A DNA stretch of 64,000 bases from Microbacterium sp. Leaf159 (GTDB lineage Bacteria > Actinomycetota > Actinomycetes > Actinomycetales > Microbacteriaceae): contig NZ_LMOU01000001.1 of assembly GCF_001423615.1 (NCBI RefSeq), forward strand, positions 1,266,882 to 1,330,881, given 5' to 3'. The notes beneath the pieces were generated by a model that was given only the letters and a program-made list of their open reading frames with translations, did not search any database and had not been told where the DNA came from. Both the position numbers and the translations under genes were made by a program. Position 1 is the first letter of the stretch, and every line of letters starts with the position of its first letter. Below are positions 8,089 through 35,899 of the stretch, one piece after another.

Positions 8089-9530
8089 GCCTGAGCCTTC
8101 CGTCCGGGGCCGGACACGACCTGCGATACGGCGACGGATTTGAGCCCTTCGATACCGAACTCCAGGCCGTAACCCGAGCTCTTCACCCCGCCGAACGGCA
8201 CCATCGGATGCAGTCCTCCGTGCGAGTTGATCCACACCGTGCCCGACTGCATGCGGGTCGCCGCCTCGCGCGCGGCATCCGGATCGCTCGACCAGACCGA
8301 GGCTCCGAGACCGACGTCGACCGCATTGGCGAAGGCGAACGCCTCGTCGACGTCGCTGTAGCGGATCACCGGCAGCGCGGGGCCGAACTGCTCCTCCTGC
8401 ACGAGGGCTGCGTCGTTGTCGATGTCGGCGACTATCGTCGGGCGATAGAACAGCTCGCCGAGTTCGGGAGCCGCTTCACCACCGGTCACGATTCGAGCAC
8501 CGCGGCTCTTCGCCTCCTCGACGAGCCGCGACACGATGTCGAACTGCGCCCGGTTCTGCAGCGGCCCCAGCACGTTGTCCTCGTCGAGCCCGTTGCCGAT
8601 CGGCACGGAGGCCGCGATCCCGGCGAGCGCCTCCACCACCTCGTCGTAGACCGAGTCGTGCACGTAGAGGCGCTTCATCGCCGCACAGGTCTGCCCCGTG
8701 TTGATGAAGGCACCCCAGAAGAGATCCTCCGCGATCGCCGCCACATCCGTCCCCGGCAGCACGATCCCGGCGTCGTTGCCACCGAGTTCGAGGGTCAGGC
8801 GCGCGAGGTTGCCGGCCGAGCTCTCGATGATCCGGCGACCGGTGGCCGTCGATCCGGTGAACATGATCTTGTCGATGTCGGGGTGGGATGCCAGGCGAGC
8901 CCCGACCTCGCGGTCTCCCGAGACCCCGATCAGCACATCGGCCGGGAGCACGTCGTTCATCACCGCCAGCAGCGCGAGCACGCTCAGCGGGGTGTACTCA
9001 CTCGGCTTCGCGACCACCGTGTTGCCCATGCGCAGCGACGGCCCGATCTGCCAGATCGTGATCATCAGCGGCCAGTTCCACGGACCGATCGCCCCGACGA
9101 CGCCCGCCGCCTTGTAGACGAGCTCGGCGTGCAGCGTCTCGTCGTCGACGAGCACCTGGGGTTCGATCTCGATCGCGGCATTCGTGCGCAGCCAGGCCGA
9201 GCAGGCGCCCAGCTCGAAGCGCGCGTTCGGCCCGTTCAACGGTTTGCCCTGTTCGCGCGAGAGCAGGTGGGCGAGTCCCTCCGCATTGGCGTCGATCGCG
9301 TCAGCGGCGGCGACGAGCAGAGCGCTGCGCTTCTCGTGGCCGAGCGCCTCCCAGCCCTGCTGGGCCGCCTTCGCCCGCACGATCGCGTCGTCCAGATCAT
9401 TCACCGAGTGCACGGGTGCGCGACCGATGACGTCACGCGTCGCGGCATCCGGGATCTCTCGCCCACCACCCTCCGGTGCCTGGATGCGGTCGAGCAGCGC
9501 GGCGGCTGCGGATGCGGCGGATTCGGACAT
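8085..9530 (-). CDS. NAD(P)-dependent aldehyde dehydrogenase
   Basis: This is a 481-residue aldehyde dehydrogenase. PWNWP, FTGSTATGRR for NAD binding, the catalytic general base in LELGGNDAG and the nucleophile Cys282 in GQTCAA are all intact. It is the first gene of a two-gene unit and overlaps the GMC oxidoreductase by 4 bp. The pair can convert an alcohol to its acid. It is closely similar over its whole length to the enzyme at 30692-32101 (shared PVHSV, LLSREQGKPLNGPNARFE and GPWNWP blocks), indicating an ancient duplication. The substrate is unknown. The neighbouring branched-chain dehydrogenase operon makes aliphatic or amino-acid-derived aldehydes possible. Confidence 0.87.
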   Translation of the reverse strand: MSESAASAAAALLDRIQAPEGGGREIPDAATRDVIGRAPVHSVNDLDDAIVRAKAAQQGWEALGHEKRSALLVAAADAIDANAEGLAHLLSREQGKPLNGPNARFELGACSAWLRTNAAIEIEPQVLVDDETLHAELVYKAAGVVGAIGPWNWPLMITIWQIGPSLRMGNTVVAKPSEYTPLSVLALLAVMNDVLPADVLIGVSGDREVGARLASHPDIDKIMFTGSTATGRRIIESSAGNLARLTLELGGNDAGIVLPGTDVAAIAEDLFWGAFINTGQTCAAMKRLYVHDSVYDEVVEALAGIAASVPIGNGLDEDNVLGPLQNRAQFDIVSRLVEEAKSRGARIVTGGEAAPELGELFYRPTIVADIDNDAALVQEEQFGPALPVIRYSDVDEAFAFANAVDVGLGASVWSSDPDAAREAATRMQSGTVWINSHGGLHPMVPFGGVKSSGYGLEFGIEGLKSVAVSQVVSGPGRKAQA

Positions 9531-9663
9531 CGGAACTCTCCTTCGAGCGGATGCGTGCCAAGGATCCGGCGCGCTCGTCTCATTGTCGAATGGCTCGCGA
9601 CGGCGCGCTTGTCGAGGAGTGCGCCGCAGATGTCCGAGTGCGAAGGGATGCCGTCTCAGACGC

Positions 9664-10101
9664 TCAGATCAGGGTGAAGTCCTCGAAGATCAGTGTCGTC
9701 CGCGTCGAGCGGATCGACGGGATCGCCTGGATGTCCTCGAGGACGATGCGTCGGAGGTCTCGGGCATCGCTCGCCCGCACGAGCAGGATCACATCGAAGT
9801 CACCGCCGACGAGCGCCATGTGCTCGATCTCGGGGATCGCCCGCAGTCGCGCGCTGACCTCCTGCCAGGTGGCCTGCTCGATCGCCAGCGTGACGTACGC
9901 GCTCGCATGGTGCCCGAGCAGCACCGGGTCTGTGCGCACCGAGTAGCCGGTGATGATGCCCGCATCGGTGAGTCGCTTGATGCGCGCGTGCGCTCCTGCT
10001 CGCGAGATGTGCACCGCCTCGGCGATGGACGTCATCGAGGCGCGGGCGTCGCGTCTCAGCTCGCCGAGGATCGCGTCGTCGGTCTCGTCCAGCGTGATCA
10101 T
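9664..10101 (-). CDS. Lrp/AsnC-family transcriptional regulator
   Basis: This is a 145-residue Lrp-type regulator. The N-terminal helix-turn-helix begins LDETDDAILGELRRDAR and contains the recognition segment ISRAGAHARIKRL. The C-terminal RAM domain includes GGDFDVILLVRA. The ATG at 10101 has an AAGGGG ribosome binding site; the frame continues upstream but without support. It is divergent from bkdABC across about 150 bp. That region contains the most AT-rich patch nearby, with TTCT and AGAA flanks at 10127 and 10146, a plausible Lrp-type site. By analogy with BkdR it probably senses branched-chain amino or oxo acids and controls bkdABC and itself. Confidence 0.83.
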   Translation of the reverse strand: MITLDETDDAILGELRRDARASMTSIAEAVHISRAGAHARIKRLTDAGIITGYSVRTDPVLLGHHASAYVTLAIEQATWQEVSARLRAIPEIEHMALVGGDFDVILLVRASDARDLRRIVLEDIQAIPSIRSTRTTLIFEDFTLI

Positions 10102-10252
10102 GGCACCCCTTCGTCCGGTCACGGAATTCTGACATTTTGGCACGAAGAACAGCAAGCTGCGCGCATCCGTCCACGATCCGATGAATCCTCTTGGACGAGT
10201 GTCGCGTGCGGGGCAAGCTGGCCTCATCGAGTTCGGCAAGGAGGGCGAACGG

Positions 10253-11380
10253 ATGGAACACGCAGATCTGCTTCCGCGCGACGCGGCGGTGCAGCTGATC
10301 GATGCCGACGGTGCGACCGTCGTCGACGAGCAGTACGCGATGCCCGGCGCAGACACGCTGCTGGCCGCATACCGGGGGCTCGTCGAAGGACGCCGCATCA
10401 ACGACCAGGCCAGTGCCCTCGTGCGTCAGGGACGCCTCGCCGTCTACCCGTCGTCGCACGGCCAGGAGGCCTGTCAGATCGGCGCAGCGCTCGCCATCGC
10501 CGCCGATGATTGGCTCTTCCCGACTTACCGGGACTCCGTGGCCGTGATCGCGCGGGGCGTGGCCCCTGCCGAGGCGATGGTGCTGTTGAAGGGCGATTGG
10601 CACTCGGGCTACGACGTGCGCGCGCACCGCGTCGCCCCGCAGGCCACTCCCCTGGCCACGCAGCTGCTGCACGCCGTGGGCTTCGCGTACGCCGCGAAGC
10701 AACGAGGAGAGGACACCGTCGTCATCGCGCTATGCGGAGACGGCGCCACCAGCGAGGGTGACTTCCACGAGGCCATGAACTTCGCCGCGGTGTTCCACGT
10801 GCCTGTCGTCTTCTTCGTGCAGAACAACGGGTTCGCGATCTCCGTGCCTCTCAGCCGGCAGACCGCCGCCCCCTCTCTCGCGCACAAGGCGATCGGCTAC
10901 GGCATGCCGGGCCGGCGCGTCGACGGCAACGACGTCGCCGCGGTGCTGGCCGTGCTCGGCGAGGCCGTCGACCGCGCCCGCGCGGCGGGCGGCCCCACTC
11001 TGGTCGAGGCGCACACCTATCGGATGCAGGCGCACACGAACGCCGACGACGACACCCGCTACCGCGAGCGCGCCGAGGTGCAGGCATGGGTCGCTCGAGA
11101 CCCGCTGGCACGTCTGCGAGCGCACCTGAGCGACATCGGCGCACTCACGGCCGAGCTCGAGGCCGAGTATGCGGCCGGGGCCGAGCGCATCGCGGCCGCG
11201 ATGCGAGAGGCGCTCAACACAGATACCGACATCGACCCCGAGGATCTCTTCCGCTTCGTGACCGAGACGCGTTCCCCGCAGCTCGAGGAGCAGTGGCAGA
11301 TGCTTCGAGGCGAGGTCGAACGGACCCGTGCCGCGGAGACCGGAGCGACCGCGCAGGCGACCCCCGGAGGTGCCCGATGA
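10253..11380 (+). CDS. bkdA: Branched-chain 2-oxoacid dehydrogenase E1 alpha
   Basis: The protein has 375 residues and is the thiamin-diphosphate-binding alpha subunit of a 2-oxoacid dehydrogenase complex. The ThDP motif is visible as GDGATSEGDFHEAMNFA followed by FFVQNNGFA, and the substrate region as YPSSHGQEA. The C-terminal half has HTYRMQAHTNADDDTRYR, typical of E1 alpha of the branched-chain type. I chose the ATG at 10253, which has AAGGAGGG about 7 bp upstream; an upstream in-frame extension to 10181 lacks this. The gene overlaps bkdB by 4 bp. With bkdB and bkdC it oxidatively decarboxylates branched-chain 2-oxo acids to acyl-CoA. The E3 subunit must be encoded elsewhere. Confidence 0.88.
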   Translation: MEHADLLPRDAAVQLIDADGATVVDEQYAMPGADTLLAAYRGLVEGRRINDQASALVRQGRLAVYPSSHGQEACQIGAALAIAADDWLFPTYRDSVAVIARGVAPAEAMVLLKGDWHSGYDVRAHRVAPQATPLATQLLHAVGFAYAAKQRGEDTVVIALCGDGATSEGDFHEAMNFAAVFHVPVVFFVQNNGFAISVPLSRQTAAPSLAHKAIGYGMPGRRVDGNDVAAVLAVLGEAVDRARAAGGPTLVEAHTYRMQAHTNADDDTRYRERAEVQAWVARDPLARLRAHLSDIGALTAELEAEYAAGAERIAAAMREALNTDTDIDPEDLFRFVTETRSPQLEEQWQMLRGEVERTRAAETGATAQATPGGAR

Positions 11381-12420
11381 CCATCGCACACGACGACGTC
11401 CGCGTCGATGAGCGCTCGACGAGCGTGTCGACCATGAGCATGGCGGCTGCGCTGAACCTCGCCCTCGCAGACGCCATCCAGTCCGACCCCGAGGTCGTGG
11501 TCTTCGGTGAGGACGTCGGCGCCCTCGGCGGAGTCTTCCGCATCACAGACGGGCTCACCGCGCGGTTCGGCGAGGAGCGCTGCTTCGACACCCCGCTCGC
11601 CGAGTCCGGCATCGTGGGCACCGCGGTCGGCATGGCCATGAACGGCATGCGACCCGTCGTCGAGCTGCAGTTCGACGCGTTCGCCCTGCCGGCGTTCGAA
11701 CAGATCGTCAGCCATGTGGCGAAGCTCGGCAACCGCACCCGCGGAGTCGTGCGGATGCCGCTGGTGATCCGCATCCCGTTCGGCGGCGGCATCGGCGGGG
11801 TCGAGCATCACTGCGACTCGTCCGAGGCCTACTACGCGCACACTCCGGGACTCACGGTCCTCAGCCCGTCGACGCCGCAGGACGCGTATTCGATGCTCAG
11901 AGCAGCCATCGCCTCGCCGGATCCGGTGGTCTTCCTCGAGCCGAAGAAGCTCTACTGGACCAAGGGCGAGGTCGACACCTCCGTCATGGCCGAGGTCGGC
12001 ACCGCCCGCATCGCTCGCGACGGCACCGACGTCACGCTCCTCGCCTACGGCGCGTCCGTGCCGCTCGCTCTGGAGGCGGCCGAGGTCGCCGCATCCGAAG
12101 GCCGCAGTGTGCAGGTCGTCGACATCCGCTCGCTCTCGCCCTTCGACGATGCCACCGTGACCGCAGCCGTGCGCGCGACCGGTCGTGCCGTCGTGATCGC
12201 CGAGGCGCCCGGCTACGCCAGCGTGGCATCGGAGATCCAGGCACGGGTCTTCGAGCGCTGCTTCGAATACCTCGAAGCACCCGTTCGCCGCGTGACCGGC
12301 TTCGACACCCCCTTCGCGCCGCCGAAGCTCGAGCACTGGTACCTGCCGGATGTCGACCGCGTCCTCGACGCGATCGACTCGCTGCACTGGGAAGACGAAT
12401 GCCGGGAGGACGAGTCATGA
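11377..12420 (+). CDS. bkdB: Branched-chain 2-oxoacid dehydrogenase E1 beta
   Basis: This is a 347-residue E1 beta subunit of the transketolase-like fold. It shows VVVFGEDVGALGGVFRITDGL near the N terminus, CFDTPLAESGIVGTAVGMAM, the potassium-binding and interface region, and a transketolase C-terminal domain ending in HWYLPDVDRVLDAID. The ATG at 11377 lies within the ATGA junction with bkdA, so the two subunits of the heterotetramer are made in register. The following gene starts inside its stop codon. It pairs with bkdA, and both are in the order seen in other actinobacterial bkd operons. Expression is likely controlled from the single promoter next to the Lrp regulator. Confidence 0.88.
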   Translation: MTIAHDDVRVDERSTSVSTMSMAAALNLALADAIQSDPEVVVFGEDVGALGGVFRITDGLTARFGEERCFDTPLAESGIVGTAVGMAMNGMRPVVELQFDAFALPAFEQIVSHVAKLGNRTRGVVRMPLVIRIPFGGGIGGVEHHCDSSEAYYAHTPGLTVLSPSTPQDAYSMLRAAIASPDPVVFLEPKKLYWTKGEVDTSVMAEVGTARIARDGTDVTLLAYGASVPLALEAAEVAASEGRSVQVVDIRSLSPFDDATVTAAVRATGRAVVIAEAPGYASVASEIQARVFERCFEYLEAPVRRVTGFDTPFAPPKLEHWYLPDVDRVLDAIDSLHWEDECREDES

Positions 12421-13827: not shown

Positions 13828-15111
13828 TCAGCTGAAGACGGCCGCCTTGCGAGCCGTCGCGTCCTCGACGGTGATACCCACGATCACGGCGTCATCCTCG
13901 ACGACGTCGCGGTCCGATACGAACCGGAAGACCTGCCCGTCGCGGGTGGTGACGGCGTAGAAGTCCTCACCGGAGGACACGACGTCGACGATCGTGCCAC
14001 CGGGGAACGCGGCGATCGCGGATGCGACAGGAGCGCCGATGCGGATGTCCCCTCGCGCCGGAAGCGCGGCACCATCCTGCACCGAGTCGAGGCTTCGCGC
14101 ATCCCCGACCGTCACCGACCAGACGGCACTGCCATCCTCGACGGGCTGCACGAGGATCGTTCCGTCTCCCTCCGGATCGACGAGCGTCCACGGCCCGCCG
14201 CTGTATGTCGGATCGATGACCTCGGCCCCGCCGGCGGCGGCGAGAGCATCTTCCACCTCGGCGCCGAGCCGGAGCGGTCCGACGCCGCCGACTTCGATCT
14301 TCCAGTCGCTCCACAGTGCTCCCGGGTCGGTCGACGACTCCTCCTCGGCGACCGGCGGGTTCTCTGTGAGCGCCTCGATGAGGTCCGCTCGCGCCTCCGC
14401 GGCGCGGCTCTGCAGAAGGAGAGCAGCGGCCTCGGCGTCGAACGAACGGTCACCGGTGAACGGCTGCATCACCTGCACGATCACGTTCCCTGTGGAGGCG
14501 AAGGCATGGAACACACGCCAGTCGTAGCCGGCGTCGACATCGATCAGCGTTCCGGCGAAAGCACTGACGTCGTCTGCGCTCTCGGGTATGACGGCGTCGA
14601 AGGTGGCAGGGGCCTCCTTGGTGAACTGCCCGCACTGCTGGGCGGCCTGCAGCAGCTGGTCCATGCGCGACTGCGCCTGTGCCTCGTCGGCGAACTGCAG
14701 GATGTACAGTTCGCCGGACCCGTAGTCCGGATCCGTCGGCACCTTCCACTCGACCGTTCGGGCGCCGACTGTGCCGAGGGACTGCTCCGCGTAGAGCGCA
14801 TCGCAGATGGCGGGAGTCGCGGGCATCCCCCCTCCGTCCGAGATCTGCTCGAGCACGGGCGACACGTCGCCGATGTCTGTGGCCTCCGGGAGCAGCCCGG
14901 TGATCTCGGATGGCGTCAGCAGGAAGCCGTCCAGCTCGTCACCGACGAACACCACGGGCCCAGCGTAGGGCGTCGGCTCCGAGGTCTCGGGTGTCGGCGA
15001 CGATGTCGTCCCTGCCTCCGGCGAGGGCGCACAGGCGGTCAGCGCGAGGAGCGCTCCGACGCCGATGAACCCGAGTGCGGCCCGCCCTCGACCATGATTC
15101 TGAACATGCAT
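13828..15111 (-). CDS. Secreted lipoprotein, sensor-domain-like
   Basis: This is a 427-residue exported lipoprotein. A basic N terminus and hydrophobic stretch lead to the lipobox LTAC, which would place the mature cysteine at about residue 27. A Ser/Thr/Pro-rich linker follows (EAGTTSSPTPETSEPTP). The first half (about 45-250) has the LLTPSEITGLLP pattern and paired cysteines of actinobacterial extracellular PknH-type sensor domains. The second half (about 260-427) appears to hold repeated short beta segments of unknown function. The ATG at 15111 has GGAGGG at a good distance. It is not linked functionally to its neighbours: convergent with bkdC and divergent from the MHS transporter. The role is unknown. 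Confidence 0.75.
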   Translation of the reverse strand: MHVQNHGRGRAALGFIGVGALLALTACAPSPEAGTTSSPTPETSEPTPYAGPVVFVGDELDGFLLTPSEITGLLPEATDIGDVSPVLEQISDGGGMPATPAICDALYAEQSLGTVGARTVEWKVPTDPDYGSGELYILQFADEAQAQSRMDQLLQAAQQCGQFTKEAPATFDAVIPESADDVSAFAGTLIDVDAGYDWRVFHAFASTGNVIVQVMQPFTGDRSFDAEAAALLLQSRAAEARADLIEALTENPPVAEEESSTDPGALWSDWKIEVGGVGPLRLGAEVEDALAAAGGAEVIDPTYSGGPWTLVDPEGDGTILVQPVEDGSAVWSVTVGDARSLDSVQDGAALPARGDIRIGAPVASAIAAFPGGTIVDVVSSGEDFYAVTTRDGQVFRFVSDRDVVEDDAVIVGITVEDATARKAAVFS

Positions 15112-15298
15112 GATTCACCCTCCGATACGCCCTTCACACCGTGATCCGGTGCCCCTGCGGCGAGCATATGGGCGCTCCGGGCGTGATGGGGAGGGCTGCG
15201 TTCATGTCGATATCAGAATGAGAGAAATCACATTCCGGAATCCGCATACGTCGAGGTCGGTACTTGGGCTGCGTGCCCGTGTGCGCTACTCTCGCTTT

Positions 15299-15320
15299 AC
15301 TGACCGATCATTCGGTAAGT
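15299..15320. promoter_or_regulatory. PaaR-type operator before MHS transporter
   Basis: The 22-bp palindrome has half-sites ACTGACCG and CGGTAAGT separated by six bases (ATCATT). It fits the actinobacterial PaaR consensus I recall (ACTNACCG, NN, CG, NN, CGGTNAGT) at 15 of the 16 fixed positions. It ends 53 bp before the transporter start codon, a suitable place for repression. The nearest PaaR-like gene is 9 kb to the right. Confidence 0.7.
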
Positions 15321-15373
15321 GACCCGGGCGATGGTGCATCGCTCTTGCCCCACCGCAGAACAATGGAGTTCGC

Positions 15374-16693
15374 ATGACGTCAGCAGTATCCGCACGCAGT
15401 TCGACCACCCGGATGCCCTCCGAGGAGCGGCGGGTCCTCGCCAGCACCCTCGTCGGCACCTCGATCGAGTGGTACGACTTCTTCATCTACGCGCAAGCCG
15501 CCGGCCTCGTGCTCGCTCCCCTGTTCCTCGCGCCGATCGCCGAGGAGAACAAGGGGTTCGCGCAGATCCTGTCGTTCGCCACCATCGGAATCTCCTTCCT
15601 CTTCCGTCCACTCGGAGCCATCGTCGCCGGGCACCTCGGCGACAAGCTGGGCCGCAAGAAGATGCTCGTCTTCACGCTCGTGATGATGGGACTCTCCACC
15701 TCCCTGATCGGCCTGCTGCCGACCTACGCGGCGATCGGCGTCGCCGCCCCGATCCTGCTCATCCTGCTCCGCATCCTGCAGGGATTCTCGGCCGGAGGCG
15801 AGTGGGGCGGGGCAGCACTGATGGCCGTCGAGCACGCGCCGACCACCCGCCGGGGGCTCTTCGGCGCGTTCCCGCAGATCGGCGTCCCGATCGGCATGAT
15901 CCTCGCCACGGCCACGCTCTGGGTGCTCACGAGCTCGATGTCGCCCGAGGCGTTCCTCGAGTGGGGCTGGCGCATCCCCTTCCTGCTGTCGATCGTGCTG
16001 ATCGCCGTCGGCTACGTGATCAGGCGCGCGGTCGACGAGAGCCCGGTCTTCGAAGACCTGCGTCGTCGCCGTCAGGAGGCCTCGGCCCCGCTGGGCCGCC
16101 TGTTCCGCAAGAACACCAAGCAGGTCGTGCTCACCGCGCTCATCTTCATCGGCAACAACGCCGCCGGATACCTGCTCATCGCGTTCTTCGCCACGTACGC
16201 GGTCACCGCCCTCGGCATGGAACGTCCTCCCGTGCTGCTGGCCACGACCCTCGCCTCGTTCGGATGGCTCATCTTCACGCTCTGGGGCGGTCATCTCTCC
16301 GATCGCCTCGGACGCGTCCGCACCTTCCAGATCGGGTACATCGCGCTCGCGCTCTGGGCGGTGCCGATGTGGTTCCTGATCGACACGGCGAACATCCTCT
16401 GGTACTTCGTCGCGCTGTTCGTGATGACGTTCGCGCTCGGCCTCTCCTACGGTCCGCAGGCGGCACTCTATGCCGAGATGTTCCCCGCCAACGTCCGATA
16501 CTCGGGCGTCTCGATCGGTTACGCACTGGGCGCGATCCTCGGCGGGGCGTTCGCCCCGATGATCGCGGAGGCTCTGATGAATCAGTTCCAGGCAGCCTGG
16601 ACCATCGGCGTCTACATCGCCATCACGGCCGTGATCTCCCTCATCGCCGTCTCGATGGTGAAGGAGACGAAGGGCGTGGACCTGCACGCCTGA
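15374..16693 (+). CDS. MHS-family MFS transporter, probable phenylacetate importer
   Basis: This is a 439-residue major facilitator of the metabolite:H+ symporter group with about twelve membrane helices. The family loop between helices 2 and 3 is present as GHLGDKLGRKKML, as is the N-terminal motif GTSIEWYDFFIY. SAGGEWGGAALMAVEHAP and LSYGPQAALYAEMF are typical MHS blocks. The ATG at 15374 is preceded by TGGAG. The PaaR-like operator directly upstream suggests that it is induced with the phenylacetate genes and may import phenylacetate or a related aromatic acid. This is an inference, since MHS proteins carry many carboxylates. A second MHS transporter is at 58200-59579. Confidence 0.8.
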   Translation: MTSAVSARSSTTRMPSEERRVLASTLVGTSIEWYDFFIYAQAAGLVLAPLFLAPIAEENKGFAQILSFATIGISFLFRPLGAIVAGHLGDKLGRKKMLVFTLVMMGLSTSLIGLLPTYAAIGVAAPILLILLRILQGFSAGGEWGGAALMAVEHAPTTRRGLFGAFPQIGVPIGMILATATLWVLTSSMSPEAFLEWGWRIPFLLSIVLIAVGYVIRRAVDESPVFEDLRRRRQEASAPLGRLFRKNTKQVVLTALIFIGNNAAGYLLIAFFATYAVTALGMERPPVLLATTLASFGWLIFTLWGGHLSDRLGRVRTFQIGYIALALWAVPMWFLIDTANILWYFVALFVMTFALGLSYGPQAALYAEMFPANVRYSGVSIGYALGAILGGAFAPMIAEALMNQFQAAWTIGVYIAITAVISLIAVSMVKETKGVDLHA

Positions 16694-21794: not shown

Positions 21795-23327
21795 CTACTC
21801 GGCCAGCAGCAGATCCGCCGCGCGCTCGCCGATCATGATCGAGGGTGCGTTCGTGTTGGCGCTCGGCACGAACGGCATCACCGACGCGTCCGCGACCCGG
21901 AGCCCTGCGATGCCCCTGACCCGGAGCTGGGGGTCGACGACCGCGAGGTCATCGACGCCCATCCGGCACGTCCCGACCTGGTGGTGATAGGTCCCGACGG
22001 TCCGGCGGGCGAAATCGCGCAGCTCCTCGCGGGTCGTGACGCTCTCACCCGGGGCGAACTCGGACGCACGGAAGGGTGCGAACTCGTCGCGACCGCCGAT
22101 CGCCCTGACCAGCTCGATCGCGTCGACCATCGCCTCGAGATCCCTCTCGTCGGCGAACACGTTCGGATCGACGAGAGGCGCGACCGACGCATCGGCAGCC
22201 GCCAGCCGCACGCTGCCCCGCGAGTGGGGCCGGACGATTCCGGCCGCGATCGTGTAGCCCTGCGCCGGAGCGGCACCGCCGTCCGTCGGATACGGAACAT
22301 GGATGAACAGCGGCTGCAGATCTGGGGCGTCACCGGCGGCCACGACACTCGAGCGGGCATACAGCTGACTCTCGAGCAGGTTCCACTGCGGCGGGGCCAC
22401 CGGGTCGACGGCGTCGTACAGCACGCTGACGAGCAGGTGGTCATGGAGGTTCTCCCCCACGCCCGGGATGTCGGCGACGACCTCGATGCCCAGCTGCTCG
22501 AGATCGCCCCGCGATCCGATCCCCGAGCGCAGCAGCACGGCGGGCGAGCCGATCGCTCCGCCGGACAGCACGACCTCGCGCCGCGCCTTCGCGAGGTGAC
22601 GGACTCCGTCGACCTCGTACTCGACGCCGACCGCTCGGCCCTCCTCGACGACGATCCGGTCGACCAGCGCGTTCGCGGTCACCGCCAACGCCTCATGCCC
22701 CAGGATCGGTGCCACGAACGACTGCCAGGCCGATGCCCGCTTGCCGTCCTTGGTCGTCGTGTGGTTGAACCCCGCCCCGTCGAGGGTCTCCCGGTTGAAG
22801 TCCTCGGTGCGCGGGATGCCGCTCGCCACCGATGCTTCCACGAACGCCGCCGCGAGCGGATGCCGCTTGTCCGCAGGGATCCGCTCCACATGCAGCGGAC
22901 CACCGGCTCCGTGGAACTCGTCGGCGCCGTCGACATGATCCTCCGACCTGCGGAAGTACGGGAGCACGTCCTCCCAGGACCAGCCGCTCGCGCCCTGCGC
23001 CGCCCAGCCGTCATAGTCACGGCGATCACCGCGCATGTAGATCATGCCGTTCAGGGAGCTCGATCCGCCGAGCGTCTTGCCCCGCGGCCAGTAGAGGACC
23101 CGCCCGCCGAGCTGCTCCTGCGGTGTCGTCATGACCGCCCAGTCGTTCGGCGACATCAGCAGCCCCGGCCATCCCTGTGGCGAGTGGATGTTCGGATCGC
23201 TGTCGACGGAGCCCGCTTCGATCACGTGCACGCTGTGCCCCGCATCCACGAGTCGACGTGCGATCGCACTGCCTGCGGATCCCGCGCCGATCACGATGTA
23301 GTCGGCACCCTCTGTGAGCTCGGTCAT
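21795..23327 (-). CDS. GMC-family choline dehydrogenase-like oxidoreductase
   Basis: This is a 510-residue FAD enzyme. The FAD motif GAGSAGSA appears within the first 25 residues. GMC signature 1 is visible around WPRGKTLGGSSSLNGMIY and signature 2 as GAIGSPAVLLRSGIG. The C-terminal YHHQVGTCRMG contains the catalytic histidine. It is longer than the paralogue at 6625-8088 by an insertion-rich middle region and more typical of BetA-like alcohol dehydrogenases. The ATG at 23327 follows AGAGGAA; a GTG one codon earlier is also possible. A 17-bp palindrome sits just upstream, and an AraC-type gene follows the promoter region on the same strand side. Substrate unknown; an alcohol linked to the flanking pathways is plausible. 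Confidence 0.85.
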   Translation of the reverse strand: MTELTEGADYIVIGAGSAGSAIARRLVDAGHSVHVIEAGSVDSDPNIHSPQGWPGLLMSPNDWAVMTTPQEQLGGRVLYWPRGKTLGGSSSLNGMIYMRGDRRDYDGWAAQGASGWSWEDVLPYFRRSEDHVDGADEFHGAGGPLHVERIPADKRHPLAAAFVEASVASGIPRTEDFNRETLDGAGFNHTTTKDGKRASAWQSFVAPILGHEALAVTANALVDRIVVEEGRAVGVEYEVDGVRHLAKARREVVLSGGAIGSPAVLLRSGIGSRGDLEQLGIEVVADIPGVGENLHDHLLVSVLYDAVDPVAPPQWNLLESQLYARSSVVAAGDAPDLQPLFIHVPYPTDGGAAPAQGYTIAAGIVRPHSRGSVRLAAADASVAPLVDPNVFADERDLEAMVDAIELVRAIGGRDEFAPFRASEFAPGESVTTREELRDFARRTVGTYHHQVGTCRMGVDDLAVVDPQLRVRGIAGLRVADASVMPFVPSANTNAPSIMIGERAADLLLAE

Positions 23328-23348
23328 CACTCGTTCCTCTCTGAACGA

Positions 23349-23365
23349 CAGGCGGTCACCGCCTG
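23349..23365. promoter_or_regulatory. Perfect 17-bp palindrome upstream of GMC oxidoreductase
   Basis: CAGGCGGT, one central C, then ACCGCCTG. It lies 22-38 bp upstream of the start codon at 23327, inside the 173-bp gap between this gene and the AraC-type gene. It could be an operator or a 5' leader hairpin. AraC proteins normally bind direct repeats, so the adjacent regulator is not the obvious partner. Confidence 0.5.
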
Positions 23366-23500
23366 CTCTCAGACCAGGATCGCTCGCGTCGGGCGCTCCT
23401 GACCGGCCACCGGCGAACAGCGATATGCCGGATGCGCACGGATGTTCGTCCTCATGCGAAGCTCCCGCGCGCAGCGGAAGACGGCTCGGCCGGAGACGGC

Positions 23501-24505
23501 TCAGTGAGCGACGCTGAGCGTCTGCGCGCGGTACTCGCTGGGAGTGATGCCGAACCGGGTGCGGAACGCGCGGGTGAAGGCGGTCGCGTCCGTGAAGCCC
23601 CAGCGCGCGCCGATCGACGAGATCTGCTGTCCGCTCTGTGTCGGGTTGCTCAGGTCGCGCCGCGTGGCGTCGAGCCGGCGGTGCCTGATCCAGGCGCTGA
23701 CGGTGTCGTTCTTGCCCTCGAACAGCTTCTGCAGGTACCGCACCGAGATGTGGTGGGCGACCGCGATCTGCGTGACGGTGAGCTCCGCGTCGCCGAGATG
23801 CGCGGCGATGTACAGCTCGATCCGCGTGAGCAGTGCGCGGCGGCCGACCTCCTCGCCGCCGTCCAGCTCCAGTTCGAGCCGCTCGCCCAGTGCGGCGGTG
23901 AGCAGGTCGAGCACGGCGTCGGACAGCGGCATCCGATTCTGCAGCGTGCCGTTCTCGAGCGTCGTGTCATAGGCCCGCAGCATCGACGACGCGATCGCAC
24001 CGACGCCCTCGCGCCCCGAGAACCGCGAAGCCGTGAGTGCGCGCAGGCGTGCCCGATCGATGCGCAGCGTCTCGAGGGGGAACATCACCACGAGCATGCG
24101 GAAGGGCCCGTCGAAGTCGAGTGCGTACGGCCGCGTGGTGTCGTAGACGGCGAAGTCGCCGGGCATCAGGATCGCATCCCGGCCGTCCTGGCTGATCACG
24201 CTGCGCCCCTGCAGCTGCACGCCCAGCTTGATGTGGCCGGGGTCGTCTCGGGCGATCTCGGCCTTCGTCCGGCTCACCCGCACGGCAGACCCCGCGACGC
24301 TCGATACCGACAGCGGCCCCACGGGTTGAGCGACCAGCTTTCCTTCGAACCCCGACCGCACGGCACCGTCGGTCGACCAGGCGCGCAGCGGAACGAAGCT
24401 GCGGTTCACGGCATCGGTCCACATGTCGAACCGCTCGGCGGAGGGCACCGCACCGCAGTCGACGACGACTCTGCCGGCGACCGCCTCGGGTGTGCGATCG
24501 TCCAT
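23501..24505 (-). CDS. AraC-family transcriptional regulator
   Basis: This is a 334-residue regulator with an N-terminal AraC-binding-like domain (about 25-200, including LGVQLQGRSVISQDGRDAILMPGDFAVYD-type beta structure) and a C-terminal double helix-turn-helix (about 235-330). The latter shows ISVRYLQKLF in the first and IGARWGFTDATAFTRAFR in the second. This architecture is that of the FeaR/NahR-unrelated AraC group used for aromatic amine and aldehyde pathways. The ATG at 24505 was taken. The gene lies upstream of, and on the same strand as, the GMC oxidoreductase and is 63 bp from the paaR stop. A role in controlling the GMC gene is the simplest inference; a role in phenylethylamine or phenylacetaldehyde oxidation is also possible. 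Confidence 0.8.
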   Translation of the reverse strand: MDDRTPEAVAGRVVVDCGAVPSAERFDMWTDAVNRSFVPLRAWSTDGAVRSGFEGKLVAQPVGPLSVSSVAGSAVRVSRTKAEIARDDPGHIKLGVQLQGRSVISQDGRDAILMPGDFAVYDTTRPYALDFDGPFRMLVVMFPLETLRIDRARLRALTASRFSGREGVGAIASSMLRAYDTTLENGTLQNRMPLSDAVLDLLTAALGERLELELDGGEEVGRRALLTRIELYIAAHLGDAELTVTQIAVAHHISVRYLQKLFEGKNDTVSAWIRHRRLDATRRDLSNPTQSGQQISSIGARWGFTDATAFTRAFRTRFGITPSEYRAQTLSVAH

Positions 24506-24568: not shown

Positions 24569-25180
24569 TCAGCGCGACTGCAGACCGTCCAGGCTCACCC
24601 GCAGGATGTCTTCGCCCAGCTCGTCAGGATCGACCGGTCCACCGGGCCGATACCACTCGACGACCGAGTTGATCATGCCGAAGATCAGCCTGGTCGCGAC
24701 CGCGGCATCGACATCGTCGCGGATCAGCCCCTCGGTCTGAGCCTCGGTGACGATCGCGGTGACCCGCTGGTCGAACGCGCGGCGGCGCACGAGTGCAGCG
24801 GTCTCGACATCGCCGTTGCCCCGCACCCGCAGCAGCAGGGTCACCGACGGGAGCTTCTCGGTGAGCACGCGAACCGCCCCGCGGATGATGGATCGCAGCC
24901 GATCGGCGGCGAGCGGATGCCGTGCCGTCGCGTCGTCCACGACGGCCTCGAGAGCGTCGAGGGCGTCGGTCAGCGCGAGTTCGAGGATCGCCGACTTGGA
25001 TTCGAAGTGATGGTAGAGCGCGGACTTGGTGAGCCCGAGGGTGGCGCTGAGGTCGGCGACGCTGGTCGCGTCGTAGCCCTGCTCGTTGAACACCTTCACG
25101 GCGACCGCGAGCACCTGCTCGCGGTCGTAACCTGGCCGGCCGCGCTTCGGGGCCGGCGCGTCGAATCCGGGCTGCGCCAT
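24569..25180 (-). CDS. paaR: TetR-family repressor, PaaR-like
   Basis: This is a 203-residue TetR protein. The DNA-binding domain (about 20-65) includes FNEQGYDATSVADLSATLGLTKSALYHHF, with the recognition helix TKSALYHHF. The C-terminal ligand domain ends in VVEWYRPGGPVDPDELGEDILRVSLDGL. It is divergent from paaJFHZI, and a palindromic site lies in the 111-bp gap. In actinobacteria PaaR represses phenylacetate genes and is released by phenylacetyl-CoA. The arrangement and operator pattern here fit that. PaaX, the GntR-type regulator of enterobacteria, is absent. Whether the same protein binds the other two sites in the window is inferred from sequence similarity. Confidence 0.8.
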   Translation of the reverse strand: MAQPGFDAPAPKRGRPGYDREQVLAVAVKVFNEQGYDATSVADLSATLGLTKSALYHHFESKSAILELALTDALDALEAVVDDATARHPLAADRLRSIIRGAVRVLTEKLPSVTLLLRVRGNGDVETAALVRRRAFDQRVTAIVTEAQTEGLIRDDVDAAVATRLIFGMINSVVEWYRPGGPVDPDELGEDILRVSLDGLQSR

Positions 25181-25238
25181 GGGCCCAGTCTGTCATTCCC
25201 GATGAGTTGCCATTCGTCCGCCGATCTGAGATCGTATT

Positions 25239-25260
25239 CCTGACCGATCGGTCTGAAATT
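25239..25260. promoter_or_regulatory. Putative PaaR operator between paaR and paaJ
   Basis: The perfect core GACCGATCGGTC is at 25242-25253. Read as a 22-bp PaaR site starting CCTGACCG, it agrees with the consensus at 12 of 16 fixed positions, weaker than the other two sites. It is 58 bp from the paaR start and 31 bp from the paaJ start, so one site could control both directions. Confidence 0.6.
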
Positions 25261-25291
25261 ATCGCCAGCGTTGGTGATCGAGAGGATGACG

Positions 25292-26475
<1,184 letters not shown>

Positions 26476-26479
<4 letters not shown>

Positions 26480-27207
26480 CCCTGCACATCGACGAGCAGG
26501 ACGACCGAATCGTCGCCACACTCGACCGACCCGACAAGCGCAATGCCATCGACCAGGCGACGGTCGATGCGCTGCACGAGCTGTGCGCGATGCTCGAAGA
26601 GGCTCCGCGCACGCTGATCCTCACGGGGTCGGGCAGGGTCTTCGCCGCCGGTGCGGACATCGCCCAGCTGCGCGATCGCACCGCGGACGACGCCAGGCGC
26701 GGCATCAACGCGACGGTGTTCATCCGCATCCAGGAGCTCCCGATGCCGGTGATCGCGGCGATCGACGGGTACGCGCTCGGAGGCGGAGCCGAGCTCGCCT
26801 ACGCCGCAGACATCCGCATCGCGACGCCGTCGCTCCGCATCGGCAACCCCGAGACCGGGCTCGGCATCATCGCGGCGGCCGGTGCGACCTGGCGGCTTCC
26901 CGAGATCGTCGGCGACGCCCGCGCGAGCGAGCTGCTGCTCACCGGGCGAGCGCTCGATGCCGAGGAGGCGCTGCGCTGGGGGCTGGTCTCGTCTCTGCAT
27001 CCGGCCGAGGAACTGCTCGCCGCCGCGCACGGGATCGTCGACCGGATCGCGGCGAACGACCCTCTGGCGACGCAGTACACGAAGCGCGCGCTGCGCACCC
27101 CGCGCGCGCAGCATCCGGCGATCGAGCTCGAGCTGCAGGCCGAGCTCTTCGAGTCGCCAGAGAAACGCCGACGCATGACCGCGTTCCTGGAGAGGAAGAG
27201 CCGATGA
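26476..27207 (+). CDS. paaF: 2,3-dehydroadipyl-CoA hydratase (enoyl-CoA hydratase)
   Basis: This is a 243-residue crotonase-fold enzyme. The oxyanion loop is visible in FAAGADIAQL and DGYALGGGAELAYAADI, and the two catalytic acids are expected in the ETGLG segment (Glu in NPETGLGI) and the earlier helix. The GTG start at 26476 lies in a GTGA overlap with paaJ. The protein is slightly short for the family because the N terminus begins directly at the first strand. In the phenylacetate pathway PaaF hydrates 2,3-dehydroadipyl-CoA. The second crotonase of the pathway, paaG, is at 40241. The assignment between the two follows gene context and sequence pattern. Confidence 0.85.
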
Positions 27208-28136
27208 GCGACACCGATGCCCGGTCGTCGAGCGAGCCCCACCCCCGGTCGTTGAGCGAGCGAAGCGAGACGAAACGCACAGACCGCGCGCCTGCGATCG
27301 TCGGAGTGCTGGGCGGCGGGCGCATGGGAGCCGGCATCGCGCATGCGTTCCTGCTCGCAGGCTCGCACGTCTGCGTGGTCGAGCGCGATGCGGCGAGCGC
27401 TGACACGGCGCACGCCCGCATCGGCGACAGCATCCGCAGATCTGTCGAACGTGATCCCTCGCTGGACGAGACGGAGCTCGCCGGCCGCCTCACGACCGGC
27501 AAGGATCTCGCAGCCTTCGCCGCGGTCGACCTCGCGATCGAGGCGGTGCCCGAGGACCGTGCGCTGAAAGACGACGCACTCGCCCGTGTCGAGGCGGCGT
27601 TGCCCGAGCACGCGACACTGGCGAGCAACACCTCGTCGATCTCGATCGATGACCTGGCTGCCGGCCGCCTGCGCCCCGAGCGGTTCCTCGGTCTGCACTT
27701 CTTCAACCCCGTGCCCGCATCGGCGCTCGTCGAGATCGTGCGCGGCGCTGCGACCGACGCGGCGACCGTCGAGAGCGCGACCGGATGGGTGGCCGCGCTC
27801 GGCAAGACGCCGATCGTCGTCAGCGACTCCCCCGGGTTCGCATCGTCTCGACTCGGCGTGATGCTCGGCCTGGAAGCGATCAGGATGCTCGAGGAGGGGG
27901 TCGCGTCGGCTGCTGACATCGATGCGGCCATGACACTCGGATACCGGCATCCGACGGGCCCGCTGCGCACGACGGACGTGGTCGGTCTGGACGTGCGCCT
28001 GGGCATCGCCGAGGAGTTGGAGCGCACGCTCGGCGCGCGGTTCGCTCCGCCGGATCTGCTGCGACGGATGGTCGCCGAAGGAAAGCTCGGCCGCAAGAGC
28101 GGCGAAGGGTTCTACGCATGGAACGAGGAGAGATGA
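27204..28136 (+). CDS. paaH: 3-hydroxyadipyl-CoA dehydrogenase
   Basis: This is a 310-residue 3-hydroxyacyl-CoA dehydrogenase. The NAD motif GGGRMGAGIA occurs at about residues 38-47, the catalytic region is SSISIDDLA followed by GLHFFNPVP with the active histidine, and a C-terminal helical domain follows. The first about 30 residues (rich in Ser, Glu and Arg, including RSLSERSETKR) precede the normal N terminus. They are encoded by a repeat element, so they may be a recent extension; family members usually begin about where VGVLGGGRMGAG starts. The ATG at 27204 overlaps the paaF stop. The product oxidises 3-hydroxyadipyl-CoA using NAD. It is followed by paaZ with another ATGA overlap. Confidence 0.86.
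   Translation: MSDTDARSSSEPHPRSLSERSETKRTDRAPAIVGVLGGGRMGAGIAHAFLLAGSHVCVVERDAASADTAHARIGDSIRRSVERDPSLDETELAGRLTTGKDLAAFAAVDLAIEAVPEDRALKDDALARVEAALPEHATLASNTSSISIDDLAAGRLRPERFLGLHFFNPVPASALVEIVRGAATDAATVESATGWVAALGKTPIVVSDSPGFASSRLGVMLGLEAIRMLEEGVASAADIDAAMTLGYRHPTGPLRTTDVVGLDVRLGIAEELERTLGARFAPPDLLRRMVAEGKLGRKSGEGFYAWNEER
27221..27278. repeat. Partial tandem of a dispersed actinobacterial repeat inside paaH
   Basis: A short copy (CCGGTCGTCGAGCGAGCCCC, 27221-27240) is followed by a longer one at 27245-27278. The longer copy begins CCGGTCGTTGAGCGAGCG and ends AGCGAGACGAAACGC. The words GAGCGAGCG and AGCGAGACGAAACG recur in many Microbacteriaceae genomes as I recall, usually between genes. 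Here the element reads in frame and adds the RSLSERSETKR-like peptide to PaaH. Confidence 0.65.
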
Positions 28137-30214
28137 CCGAGTATCTGCCGAGTTACGTCCGGGGCGAGTGGTGGACGCCGTCGTCCCCCGAACGCTCCAC
28201 CGAAGTCCGTGACGCGTCGACCGGAGACGTCGTCACGCTCGTCTCCACCGAGGGCCTGGATCTCGCGGGGGCGCTGGAGCACGCTCGCTCCGTGGGGCAG
28301 AAGAGCCTCGGGGCGCTCACGTTCCACCAGCGCGCCGTACTGCTCAAGCAGTTCGCCCTCGCACTCACCGAGCGCAAGGACGAGCTGTACGCGCTGTCCT
28401 CCCGCACCGGCGCCACGAAGAACGACTCGTGGGTCGATATCGACGGCGGCATCGGGGTGCTCTTCTCGTACTCCGGCAAGGGGCGACGCGAGCTGCCGAA
28501 CAGCCGTGTGCACGTCGACGGCCCGGTCGAGCCGCTCTCGAAGGACGGGTCGTTCCTCGGACGCCACGTCTACACGACGCTGCCAGGCGTCGCCGTGCAG
28601 ATCAACGCCTTCAACTTCCCGGTGTGGGGATCGCTCGAGAAGTTCGCTCCGGCGTTCCTCGCCGGCATGCCGACCGTCGTGAAGCCCGCCACCCCCACGG
28701 GATACCTGGCCGAGGCGATGGTGCGCATCCTCGTCGAGTCCGGTCTGCTGCCCGACGGATCGCTCCAGCTCATCAGCGGCAGCGTTCCCGACCTCTTCGA
28801 GAACCTGAGGCTGGGTGACATCGTCGGCTTCACCGGCAGCGCATCGACGGCGGAGAGCCTCAAGGCCCACCCCGCGGTGCAGACGGGCGGCGTGCGGTTC
28901 ACCGCCGAGACCGACTCGATCAACGCCTCGGTGCTCGGCACCGACGCGGTCGAGGGCACGCCCGAGTTCGACGCCTATGTGCGCCAGCTCGTCACCGAGA
29001 TGACGAGCAAAGCCGGTCAGAAGTGCACGGCGATCCGCCGCGCGATCGTGCCCACGGGGTCGGCGGATGCCGTGGTCGCCGCCGTGCAGGCGCGCATCGC
29101 CGACAAGACCGTGCTGGGCGATCCCCGCGCGGAGGGCGTCACCATGGGCCCTCTCGCGTCGACCGCACAGCGCGACGAGGTGCTGCGACAGGTGGGCAGG
29201 CTGCAGACGGCGGGAGGACGGATCGTCGTCGGGACGACGGATGCTCCCGAGGTGCGGCTCACCGACGGCAGCACGAGTGTCAGCCCCGAGGGCGCGTTCG
29301 TCTCGCCGCTGCTGCTGCGCTTCGACGACTCGCAGTCCGATGCAGCGCACTCGATCGAGGCCTTCGGCCCTGTGTCGTCGCTGCTCACCTACGACACCAC
29401 CGCCGATGCCGCAGCGCTCGTGGCGCGGGGCGGCGGCTCGCTCGTCACCAGCATCGCGACGCACGACCCTGTGCAGGCTGTGGATCTCGCGGCGCGCATC
29501 GCCCCGTTCAACGGCCGGATGCTGCTGCTCGACCGCGATGACGCACGGTCGTCGACCGGTCACGGCTCGCCGCTGCCGAACCTCGTGCACGGCGGCCCCG
29601 GCCGGGCCGGCGGCGGCGAGGAGCTCGGCGGCATCCGTGCGGTGCTCCACCACATGCAGCGCACCGCGGTGCAGGGTTCGCCCGAGATGCTCACAGCGCT
29701 GACAGGCGTGTGGCATGCGGGGGCCGCCGCGCACAGCGACGGACGGCACCCGTTCCGCAAGTCGCTCGCAGAGCTCCGCATCGGCGACCAGATCGTCTCG
29801 GCATCGCGTGAGGTGGCGCTCGCCGACATCGAGACGTTCGCGCACTTCACGGGTGACACCTTCTATGCGCACATGGACGAGACGGCCGCTGCGGCGAACC
29901 CGTTCTTCCCCGGACGCGTGGCGCACGGCTACCTGCTCGTCTCGTGGGCGGCCGGTCTCTTCGTCGACCCGGAGCCCGGACCCGTGCTCGCGAACTACGG
30001 GCTCGAGAACCTGCGTTTCATCACGCCCGTCTCTCCCGGCGACACGATCCGGGTCGAGCTCACCGCCAAGCAGATCACCCCGCGCGAGACCGACGAGTAC
30101 GGCGAGGTGCGCTGGGATGCCGTGATCCGCAACCAGAGCGACGAGCTCGTCGCGACCTACGACGTGCTCACGCTGGTGAACAAGGAGCCGACGCCCGAGG
30201 TCGTGGCCGCATGA
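28133..30214 (+). CDS. paaZ: Bifunctional oxepin-CoA hydrolase / semialdehyde dehydrogenase PaaZ
   Basis: This is a 693-residue fusion. The N-terminal aldehyde dehydrogenase domain (about 1-510) has VQINAFNFPVWG, VGFTGSAS for NAD and the nucleophile Cys298 in GQKCTAIRR. The C-terminal MaoC-type hydratase domain (about 540-690) has FAHFTGDTFYAHMD and FFPGRVAHGYLL, which carry its catalytic Asp and His. PaaZ opens the oxepin-CoA ring through the MaoC half and oxidises the aldehyde with the other half. Both active sites look intact. The ATG at 28133 follows GAGGAG; an ATG 15 bp upstream is in frame but lies deeper in paaH. It is coupled by ATGA overlaps to paaH and paaI. Confidence 0.92.
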   Translation: MTEYLPSYVRGEWWTPSSPERSTEVRDASTGDVVTLVSTEGLDLAGALEHARSVGQKSLGALTFHQRAVLLKQFALALTERKDELYALSSRTGATKNDSWVDIDGGIGVLFSYSGKGRRELPNSRVHVDGPVEPLSKDGSFLGRHVYTTLPGVAVQINAFNFPVWGSLEKFAPAFLAGMPTVVKPATPTGYLAEAMVRILVESGLLPDGSLQLISGSVPDLFENLRLGDIVGFTGSASTAESLKAHPAVQTGGVRFTAETDSINASVLGTDAVEGTPEFDAYVRQLVTEMTSKAGQKCTAIRRAIVPTGSADAVVAAVQARIADKTVLGDPRAEGVTMGPLASTAQRDEVLRQVGRLQTAGGRIVVGTTDAPEVRLTDGSTSVSPEGAFVSPLLLRFDDSQSDAAHSIEAFGPVSSLLTYDTTADAAALVARGGGSLVTSIATHDPVQAVDLAARIAPFNGRMLLLDRDDARSSTGHGSPLPNLVHGGPGRAGGGEELGGIRAVLHHMQRTAVQGSPEMLTALTGVWHAGAAAHSDGRHPFRKSLAELRIGDQIVSASREVALADIETFAHFTGDTFYAHMDETAAAANPFFPGRVAHGYLLVSWAAGLFVDPEPGPVLANYGLENLRFITPVSPGDTIRVELTAKQITPRETDEYGEVRWDAVIRNQSDELVATYDVLTLVNKEPTPEVVAA

Positions 30215-30603
30215 GGTCGATGATGCAGCGCGATGCCGCCTCGGCGATGCTCGGCATGGTCATCGAACTCGATGCGCCGGGAGAGGCCGTGGTCTCGATG
30301 ACGGTGCGCGACGACATGCTGAACGGCTTCGCGATCACGCACGGCGGGCTGGTCTTCACGCTCGCAGACACCGCTTTCGCGATCGCCTGCAATGAAGACG
30401 AGCGGGTCACCGTCGCCGGTGGCGCCGACATCACGTTCCTGAAGTCGACCACCTCGGGCGACCGCCTGACGGCACGAGCCGTTCGCCGGGTCGTCAGCGG
30501 CCGCAACGGGCTCTACGACGTGACCGTCACCGACGGCTCCGGCGACGTCGTCGCCGAGGTCCGTGGCCGCTCGCTCACGACGAACCGTTCGCAGGCGGGG
30601 TGA
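30211..30603 (+). CDS. paaI: Hotdog thioesterase PaaI
   Basis: This is a 130-residue hotdog-fold protein. The conserved ITHGGLVFTLADTAFAIACN holds the HGG motif and the catalytic acid on the following helix. The rest has the expected strand pattern ending in GDVVAEVRGRS. PaaI hydrolyses phenylacetyl-CoA and related thioesters and may release trapped CoA during phenylacetate catabolism. It is the last gene of paaJFHZI. The start overlaps the paaZ stop (ATGA) and a perfect 12-bp hairpin follows 28 bp later, which supports the operon end. The neighbouring gene on the other side is convergent. Confidence 0.9.
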   Translation: MRSMMQRDAASAMLGMVIELDAPGEAVVSMTVRDDMLNGFAITHGGLVFTLADTAFAIACNEDERVTVAGGADITFLKSTTSGDRLTARAVRRVVSGRNGLYDVTVTDGSGDVVAEVRGRSLTTNRSQAG

Positions 30604-30630
30604 GATCGTGCCGGACGCCCTGCATGGTGA

Positions 30631-30663
30631 GGGCCGGAATCGGTGTCGTCACGATTCCGGCCC
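30631..30663. terminator. Hairpin terminator after paaI
   Basis: A perfect 12-bp stem (GGGCCGGAATCG, 30631-30642, with its complement at 30652-30663) has a 9-nt loop. It lies between the convergent paaI and aldehyde dehydrogenase genes and can serve both. Confidence 0.85.
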
Positions 30664-30691
30664 CGGTCCTGTGCCGCGCTGCGGTCGGTCC

Positions 30692-32101: not shown

Positions 32102-32285
32102 AGCATCCTCCTTGATCGCGGACTGCTCCGTCCGGTATTCGGAGCCTACGAGCGCGGACGCCGGCCGGTACAGGCCCGACGACCCTTCGTGCACACGCGG
32201 CACAGGGTCGTACGCCTCGGGCAGATCGAGCCCTCGACATCCGCGATCTGATGGAATACGCCCCCCTGCGACGAAGGAGTCGACG

Positions 32286-35852: not shown

Positions 35853-35899
35853 GGGCCGTTCCCCACACGCAGAACGCCCCTGCACCCGATCGCGTCGTC

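Follow-up and report, generated by a model that had tools for sequence, protein, structure and literature searches.

A PaaR-like operator ahead of an MHS-type transporter gene, a candidate for phenylacetate uptake in Microbacterium sp. Leaf159

Operator, transporter and paa genes

The DNA analyzed here is a stretch of 64,000 nucleotides from Microbacterium sp. Leaf159 (contig NZ_LMOU01000001.1, positions 1,266,882 to 1,330,881), referred to below as the window. It contains a transporter gene preceded by a palindromic sequence and, further downstream, genes for the breakdown of phenylacetate (paa genes). The relevant features are:

15299-15320 (+): PaaR-like operator of 22 bp, ACTGACCGATCATTCGGTAAGT
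15374-16693 (+): MFS transporter of the MHS type (metabolite:H+ symporter), 439 aa, TIGR00883 match; predicted phenylacetate/arylacetate importer
24569-25180 (-): TetR-family regulator, predicted PaaR; self-score 427 bits, next TetR in the genome 42 bits
25239-25260 (+): second operator, CCTGACCGATCGGTCTGAAATT, in the divergent paaR-paaJ region; 4 mismatches to the palindrome
25286-26479 (+): paaJ, 3-oxoadipyl-CoA thiolase type (family search)
26467-27207 (+): paaF-type enoyl-CoA hydratase, start approximate
27285-28136 (+): paaH-type 3-hydroxyacyl-CoA dehydrogenase, start approximate
28118-30214 (+): paaZ (TIGR02278, 1019.7 bits)
30220-30603 (+): paaI thioesterase, start approximate (TIGR02286)
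30692-32302 (-): aldehyde dehydrogenase; phenylacetaldehyde dehydrogenase among the best families, all below cut-off
32310-33599 (+): paaK, phenylacetate-CoA ligase, start approximate (TIGR02155 above cut-off)
36368-36389 (-): third operator, ACTGACCGGTCGTTAGGTAATT, before paaA; 2 mismatches to the consensus
36416-40230 (+): paaA, B, C, D and E, phenylacetyl-CoA epoxidase
40241-41011 (+): paaG-type enoyl-CoA isomerase/hydratase (PF00378)
58200-59579 (-): second MHS-type paralogue, 52% identical to the transporter at 15374-16693

The operator ACTGACCGATCATTCGGTAAGT is separated by 53 bases from the ATG of the transporter gene (15374). It was compared with the consensus ACTNACCGNNCGNNCGGTNAGT, which is reportedly given for actinobacterial PaaR in the abstract of Chen et al. 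2012 on C. glutamicum; 15 of the 16 fixed positions agree and one is a mismatch. Both the agreement and the distance had been claimed in a preliminary description of this DNA, and the sequence bears them out. That description had also proposed a genome-wide motif scan. In the genome of the host (3,887,207 bases, 3.89 Mb, in 5 contigs), the palindrome ACTNACCG-N6-CGGTNAGT (14 positions) has a single perfect match, which is the site at 15299-15320. With up to two mismatches it occurs in 11 places genome-wide, 9 of which are inside ORFs of 89 to 1007 codons. The only ORFs that overlap the 15299 site are short ones, two in number (67 and 71 codons), and the site at the paaA promoter is overlapped by none. 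The ORFs used for this test were called mechanically; two of the nine intragenic places were also inspected by hand. As candidates for other strong regulon members, the near-perfect matches at C1:1660104 and C1:539372 were rejected because they fall within genes, and the remaining sites with up to two mismatches because they lie within ORFs. By shuffling, 0.36 matches to the half-sites of the operator are expected in the 64-kb window at up to three mismatches. A pattern built from the three window sites finds these three at zero mismatches, a fit that holds by construction, and none below two in the rest of the genome.

Reading by eye points to a possible promoter, TTGGGC-N17-TACTCT (15264-15292, +), directly ahead of the operator, and its GCTAC is retained in most of 10 aligned species; a strict sigma-70 consensus scan at the transporter found no promoter. 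Because the operator begins 7 bases past the putative -10 box TACTCT (15287-15292), it could well overlap the transcription start.

The transporter matches TIGR00883 over model positions 1-400 of 400 (E 1.4e-120). Its score of 403.1 bits is below the curated NCBI cut-off of 443.45, and it also falls far short of the ShiA and ProP model cut-offs, so that no characterised MHS member predicts its substrate. Solved structures gave remote MFS matches only. On plasmids, seven records carry a relative of the transporter, all of them labelled just “MFS transporter”. The neighboring gene of the transporter (13828-15111) encodes a lipoprotein.

The paa genes had been described as lying about 8 kb away, and this is correct: paaR is located 7.9 kb and paaJ 8.6 kb past the transporter gene. 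The accompanying statement that they include no other transporter agrees with the family searches, which detected none in the paa block. Outside this block, the window does contain the paralogue at 58200-59579. No operator within four mismatches was found near the start of this second MHS gene. It was rejected as a better candidate: it shares 52% identity, has no site, and lies beside genes of the phenol-2-monooxygenase, IclR and fumarylacetoacetate-hydrolase types. This aromatic block (55381-57303, 57385-58086, 59643-61202) comprises a phenol 2-monooxygenase type gene, an IclR gene and a fumarylacetoacetate hydrolase fused to an RraA-like domain. Its IclR is 57% identical to the IclR that accompanies an hpaB-MHS pair in Sinomonas. 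A hidden transporter at 30.6-32.3 kb could also be dismissed, as this region encodes the aldehyde dehydrogenase.

Within the paa block, the TetR-family gene paaR is present together with paa genes and is divergent from paaJ. A second paa cluster or a second PaaR was looked for in the genome and rejected, with one PaaA match and the next TetR at 42 bits; weaker matches to PaaR number 13. At the catabolic promoters of the host, the regulon motif is found with 2 mismatches at paaA and only at 4 mismatches in the paaR/paaJ region. Among 20 aligned species, the core of the paaR-paaJ operator reads GACCGATCGGTC in 14 and GAACGATCGGTC in the other 6. The third operator is in the same place in four Microbacterium relatives (L116-L119), and 29 of 30 paaA loci (the best 30 of 51, own included) have a site with up to four mismatches within 350 bp.

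A RecQ-type helicase gene (-) and a small ORF lie between paaK and paaA. Just upstream of the RecQ-type gene, at 35768-35855, about four copies of a 22-base unit, CTCATGCCACCGACGTCAGGGC, are arranged head to tail. A GMC oxidoreductase gene and a FeaR-like AraC regulator gene (21795-24505) lie in or beside the paa block, like the aldehyde dehydrogenase gene (30692-32302). Their products may channel substrates of the phenylethylamine or phenylethanol type toward phenylacetate.

Sites and gene order around orthologues

As the orthologue set, we took the 80 best loci found among 84,980 species genomes. A PaaR-like site with up to four mismatches was found within 300 bp upstream in 46 of these 80 loci, compared to about 2 in random control stretches, which were drawn from the same loci and not matched in composition to intergenic DNA. 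The remaining 34 orthologues have no such site in the 300 bp. Sites occur both in loci near a paa gene (24 of 33, 1.23 expected) and in loci away from paa genes (22 of 47, 0.85 expected). Sorted by identity of the orthologue, the counts among the best 80 are 14/15 at 80% or more, 14/17 at 70-80%, 12/22 at 65-70% and 6/26 below 65%. In the genus, all of the best 30 of 60 loci have a site with up to three mismatches, located 45 to 106 bp ahead of the start. Of the 10 orthologue loci of the family sample, own included, 6 have one with up to four. Among 20 paralogue loci (52-56% identity), no site with up to four mismatches was detected in 350 bp. A single site in a single genome could be chance; with the sole perfect match in 3.89 Mb, sites at 46 of the best 80 orthologue loci compared to about 2 expected, and the conserved footprint described below, a chance palindrome is ruled out for practical purposes.

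Ten genus members share the arrangement of the window (G299, G417, G421, G423, G430, G439, G533, G537, G577 and G579). In these, the transporter gene is 4.4-8.2 kb from paaR in tail-to-tail orientation, and paaR is 83-99% like that of the window. Of the 11 species with this arrangement, 10 (the window and nine others) have the identical 22-bp operator, whereas farther upstream their DNA has diverged or was replaced; the odd one of the 11 is G533 (L241), whose operator has 3 mismatches.

Some of the best 80 loci stop at contig ends, and counts of neighbors are therefore lower bounds. At least 33 of the 80 have one or more paa genes in the locus, and at least 27 have two or more. A paaJ gene on the same strand within 1 kb after the MHS gene was found in at least 13 of the 80, and in two loci, both from Arthrobacter (L072 and L074), paaK follows on the same strand after about 140 bp.

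The orthologue and paaA also occur in the same genomes: 77 of the best 80 (50 of 50, own aside, and 27 of 30) contain paaA, the three without it being L099, L100 and L106. In the genus sample, all 60 genomes with an orthologue match (E 1e-160) have paaA, compared to 200 of 295 overall (hypergeometric 3.5e-12, own genome left out, common descent ignored). In the family sample, this applies to 10 of 10 orthologue genomes compared to 54 of 249 overall, with an orthologue cut of more than 600 bits that was picked after seeing a gap down to 495 bits; among genomes with a paralogue-level match alone it is 22 of 53, and among those without a match 22 of 186. All of these co-occurrence counts ignore common descent, and the genus sample overlaps with the best 80 loci. 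At the E 1e-160 cut, 140 of the 200 paaA genomes of the genus have no orthologue; another importer must therefore serve there.

Five Microbacterium neighborhoods were read gene by gene. In four of them the transporter heads paaJ-F-H-Z, and in the fifth (EYE_78) it ends the paa cluster. The four (M. oxydans, EST19A, LCT-H2 and M. hydrocarbonoxydans) have the order E1a-E1b-E2, MHS-paaJ-F-H-Z, then paaI-K-R on the opposite strand and a lipoprotein gene, which is followed by DhaM-L-K in three of the four and then by RecQ and paaABCDE. EYE_78 has the order J-F-H-Z-I-K-A-B-C-D-E-G with the transporter gene at the end; no site precedes it, the match there having 7 mismatches. Of the 26 genomes in the 81-85% tier, G318 has no paaR listed, and in 23 of the other 25 the MHS gene and paaR are tail to tail with a gap of less than 400 bp; in the exceptions, the two genes are on different contigs (G399) or 11.9 kb apart (G449). 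In relatives (L175-L182), the transporter/paa block is flanked by a lipoprotein gene on one side, which varies, and in M. oxydans on both sides (45-56% identity); these genes may mark rearrangement points.

Taken together, synteny, co-occurrence with paaA, sites both near and far from paa genes, the conserved footprint and the 0 of 20 paralogues support the earlier proposal that the transporter is a member of the phenylacetate regulon. The same proposal had called it a distant member, and this part has to be corrected: it is not distant by origin, as relatives have the gene within the paa cluster or next to it, and its separation here appears to be secondary.

Exchange of the paa core

In the window, the transporter gene is followed by DhaM-L-K, and the paa core lies between DhaM-L-K and RecQ. 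Compared to M. oxydans and M. hydrocarbonoxydans, the MHS protein, PaaA, PaaB and RecQ of the window are 87-97% identical and PaaC and PaaE 84-92%, whereas PaaJ, F, H, Z, K and I show 71-82% (90% for PaaZ of M. hydrocarbonoxydans). PaaR shows 62-63% in this comparison, and only 59-63% across the close relatives that have the same operators. Considering M. oxydans alone, the products of the block at 24569-33599 are 62-79% identical, compared to 84-96% for the transporter, RecQ and paaABCE. For the core proteins, M. oxydans shares higher identity with Agromyces salentinus than with the window (PaaJ 85 and 79%, PaaF 80 and 72%, PaaH 80 and 71%, PaaZ 84 and 79%, respectively); for the MHS protein this is reversed (86 and 93%). 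By this discordance and the gene order, it is the core of the window that is the outlier. The transporter looks like the stranded first gene of an older run.

The paaR/paaJFHZIK block at 24569-33599 therefore appears to come from another lineage than the transporter, RecQ and paaABCE, and the native core appears to have been exchanged, judging from pairwise identities and gene order. The direction of this exchange is not beyond doubt, because the tail-to-tail arrangement of MHS and paaR is also found in the 81-85% tier and because EYE_78 has the paaR / J-F-H-Z-I-K order of the window. In M. hydrocarbonoxydans (L181/L182), PaaH and PaaZ are nearer to the window (82 and 90%), and PaaJ, F, R, K and I resemble those of M. 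oxydans; such a mosaic core suggests recombination inside the cluster.

Despite the low overall identity of the two types of PaaR, the stretch which we take to be the TetR recognition helix reads LGLTKSALYHHF in the window and LGLSKSAIYHHF in the M. oxydans type, and 15 of the 24 residues at PaaR positions 39-62 are common to both. A recognition helix that is nearly the same would be consistent with the new repressor having taken over the old operators.

Proposed role, alternative readings and known systems

We consider it probable that the MHS gene serves the PaaR phenylacetate regulon as its uptake gene, with repression, an uptake loop and an exchange of the core as outlined here. This reading builds on the site, the gene order, the co-occurrence, the footprint and the sequence discordance. 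PaaR is known elsewhere to repress until phenylacetyl-CoA forms (PMC9493321). By analogy, we infer that the single PaaR-like TetR regulator (24569-25180) binds the operator at 15299, at or over the transcription start, and would block transcription. Incoming phenylacetate, the presumed substrate, would be converted by PaaK to phenylacetyl-CoA, the presumed effector, and PaaR would be released. The transporter would then be induced along with paaJFHZ and paaABCDE, which would give a positive loop of uptake and catabolism. Regarding the order of rearrangements, we propose that the ancestral state was that of the close relatives, with the transporter ahead of paaJ-F-H-Z. In this lineage, the native JFHZ/RKI block would have been lost from behind the transporter, and a diverged paa core with its own PaaR would have come to lie 8 kb away, the transporter and paaABCDE keeping their old operators.

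The substrate is where the most serious alternative arises. The transporter could be a member of the PaaR regulon and yet have 4-hydroxyphenylacetate or another arylacetate as its main substrate, with phenylacetate secondary. MHS-type carriers tend to accept acids of one class, and in 3 of the best 80 loci, all from Micrococcaceae, a gene for 4-hydroxyphenylacetate 3-monooxygenase (hpaB) lies ahead of the orthologue: L040 (Sinomonas mesophila, 8406-11368), L047 (Arthrobacter luteolus) and L058 (A. mobilis, 8230-11389). These loci carry their own sites before the MHS gene (2, 4 and 3 mismatches, respectively). An IclR gene accompanies hpaB in two of the three (L040 and L058), and 4 of the best 80 loci have amine oxidase and FeaR-like genes near the orthologue. 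A carrier which also takes 4-hydroxyphenylacetate is therefore a real possibility. In Microbacterium, however, the transporter gene is located at paaJFHZ or beside paaR, and an HpaB search of the host genome, run without a positive control, gave no match. Due to the gene order in Microbacterium we favor phenylacetate, and regard a main substrate other than phenylacetate as unlikely.

It is also conceivable that the operator is a leftover, which the new PaaR no longer reads since the core was replaced. In favor of this, the core genes stem from another lineage, and identity between the PaaR of the window and that of close relatives is just 59-63%. Yet the operator is identical in 10 of the 11 species of this arrangement amid diverged flanking DNA, the recognition-helix stretch is nearly unchanged and the paaA operator has been retained as well, and we judge a leftover quite improbable. 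A TetR-type repressor of acyl-CoA metabolism other than PaaR, recognizing a similar ACCG..CGGT site, might control the transporter instead, but this seems very improbable. Several TetR regulators use related palindromes, and the 13 weaker PaaR matches would provide candidates; still, the nearest other TetR scores 42 bits compared to 427 for PaaR, no TetR gene was seen adjoining the transporter here, and the same type of site is found at paaA, at paaR/paaJ and before orthologues located at paa genes. These readings are not mutually exclusive, and our estimates for them need not add up to one.

Returning to the transporter as the uptake gene of the PaaR regulon, we regard the operator as real and the transporter as a strong candidate for an importer and perhaps as the paaT of this group; most likely it imports phenylacetate or a close relative. 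Its membership in the regulon is well supported by the comparative data, and the apparently exchanged core beside retained operators is the most interesting part. A broader picture, for which we see the chances as even, would be that the MHS clade is a general arylacetate (phenylacetate/4-hydroxyphenylacetate) importer of many Actinomycetes and, in addition, that the regulon persisted when its own repressor and core operon were replaced, its old operators being taken over by an incoming PaaR of about 60% identity.

A transporter clade that is tied to PaaR-like sites and to paaA (77 of the best 80) is a candidate, open to direct testing, for the uptake of phenylacetate by Gram-positive soil bacteria. 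The host, a soil-type actinobacterium, would keep the switch for phenylacetate breakdown ahead of a stand-alone transporter gene, and the exchanged core would be a natural experiment on the survival of a regulon after exchange of its repressor. In the literature searched, the full texts of which were covered in part only, no MHS carrier named for phenylacetate was found. The word “transporter” is absent from the main text of a 2026 survey of the phenylacetate pathway (PMC13186573), and the part of PMC3840689 that was covered mentions PaaR once, without contents.

With the known carriers of the MHS family (TIGR00883; relatives of KgtP, ProP and ShiA), the transporter shares a full-length match to the model and differs by its score below the cut-off. 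PaaL, together with PaaM, is the phenylacetate permease of Pseudomonas putida, and in strain CA-3 it is sigma-54 dependent (PMC3224230, PMC2653477); among 102 genomes, paaL and paaM were present only in P. putida (PMC2653477). The likeness drawn here is one of role, as the window gene, too, would be a dedicated phenylacetate uptake gene of a catabolon; in contrast to the sigma-54 dependence of PaaL in CA-3, the transporter of the window has a PaaR-like operator. TetR-type PaaR regulators of paa genes are also described for Thermus thermophilus (TTHA0973, site AACnAACGTTnGTT; PMC6651687) and Streptomyces pristinaespiralis (putative site AACGA-N4-TCGGT; PMC10933834). The type of control is the same, but the sites differ from the palindrome found here.

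The closest likeness in regulon content is with C. glutamicum, where a TetR repressor, paa genes and a transporter gene are likewise combined in one regulon. The PaaR regulon of strain AS 1.542, the subject of Chen et al. 2012, is said to include paaT. Indeed, paaTK is named among the PaaR-regulated paa genes of this strain (PMC8864220). With paaT and a “putative phenylacetate transporter” of C. glutamicum in print, a PaaR-controlled transporter is already known and is thus not a new idea. The MHS protein can be likened to paaT / CgR_0643 by gene order alone: the MHS-paaK pairs of the two Arthrobacter loci recall paaTK. The difference from C. glutamicum is that the transporter gene stands alone here, 8 kb from a diverged paa core.
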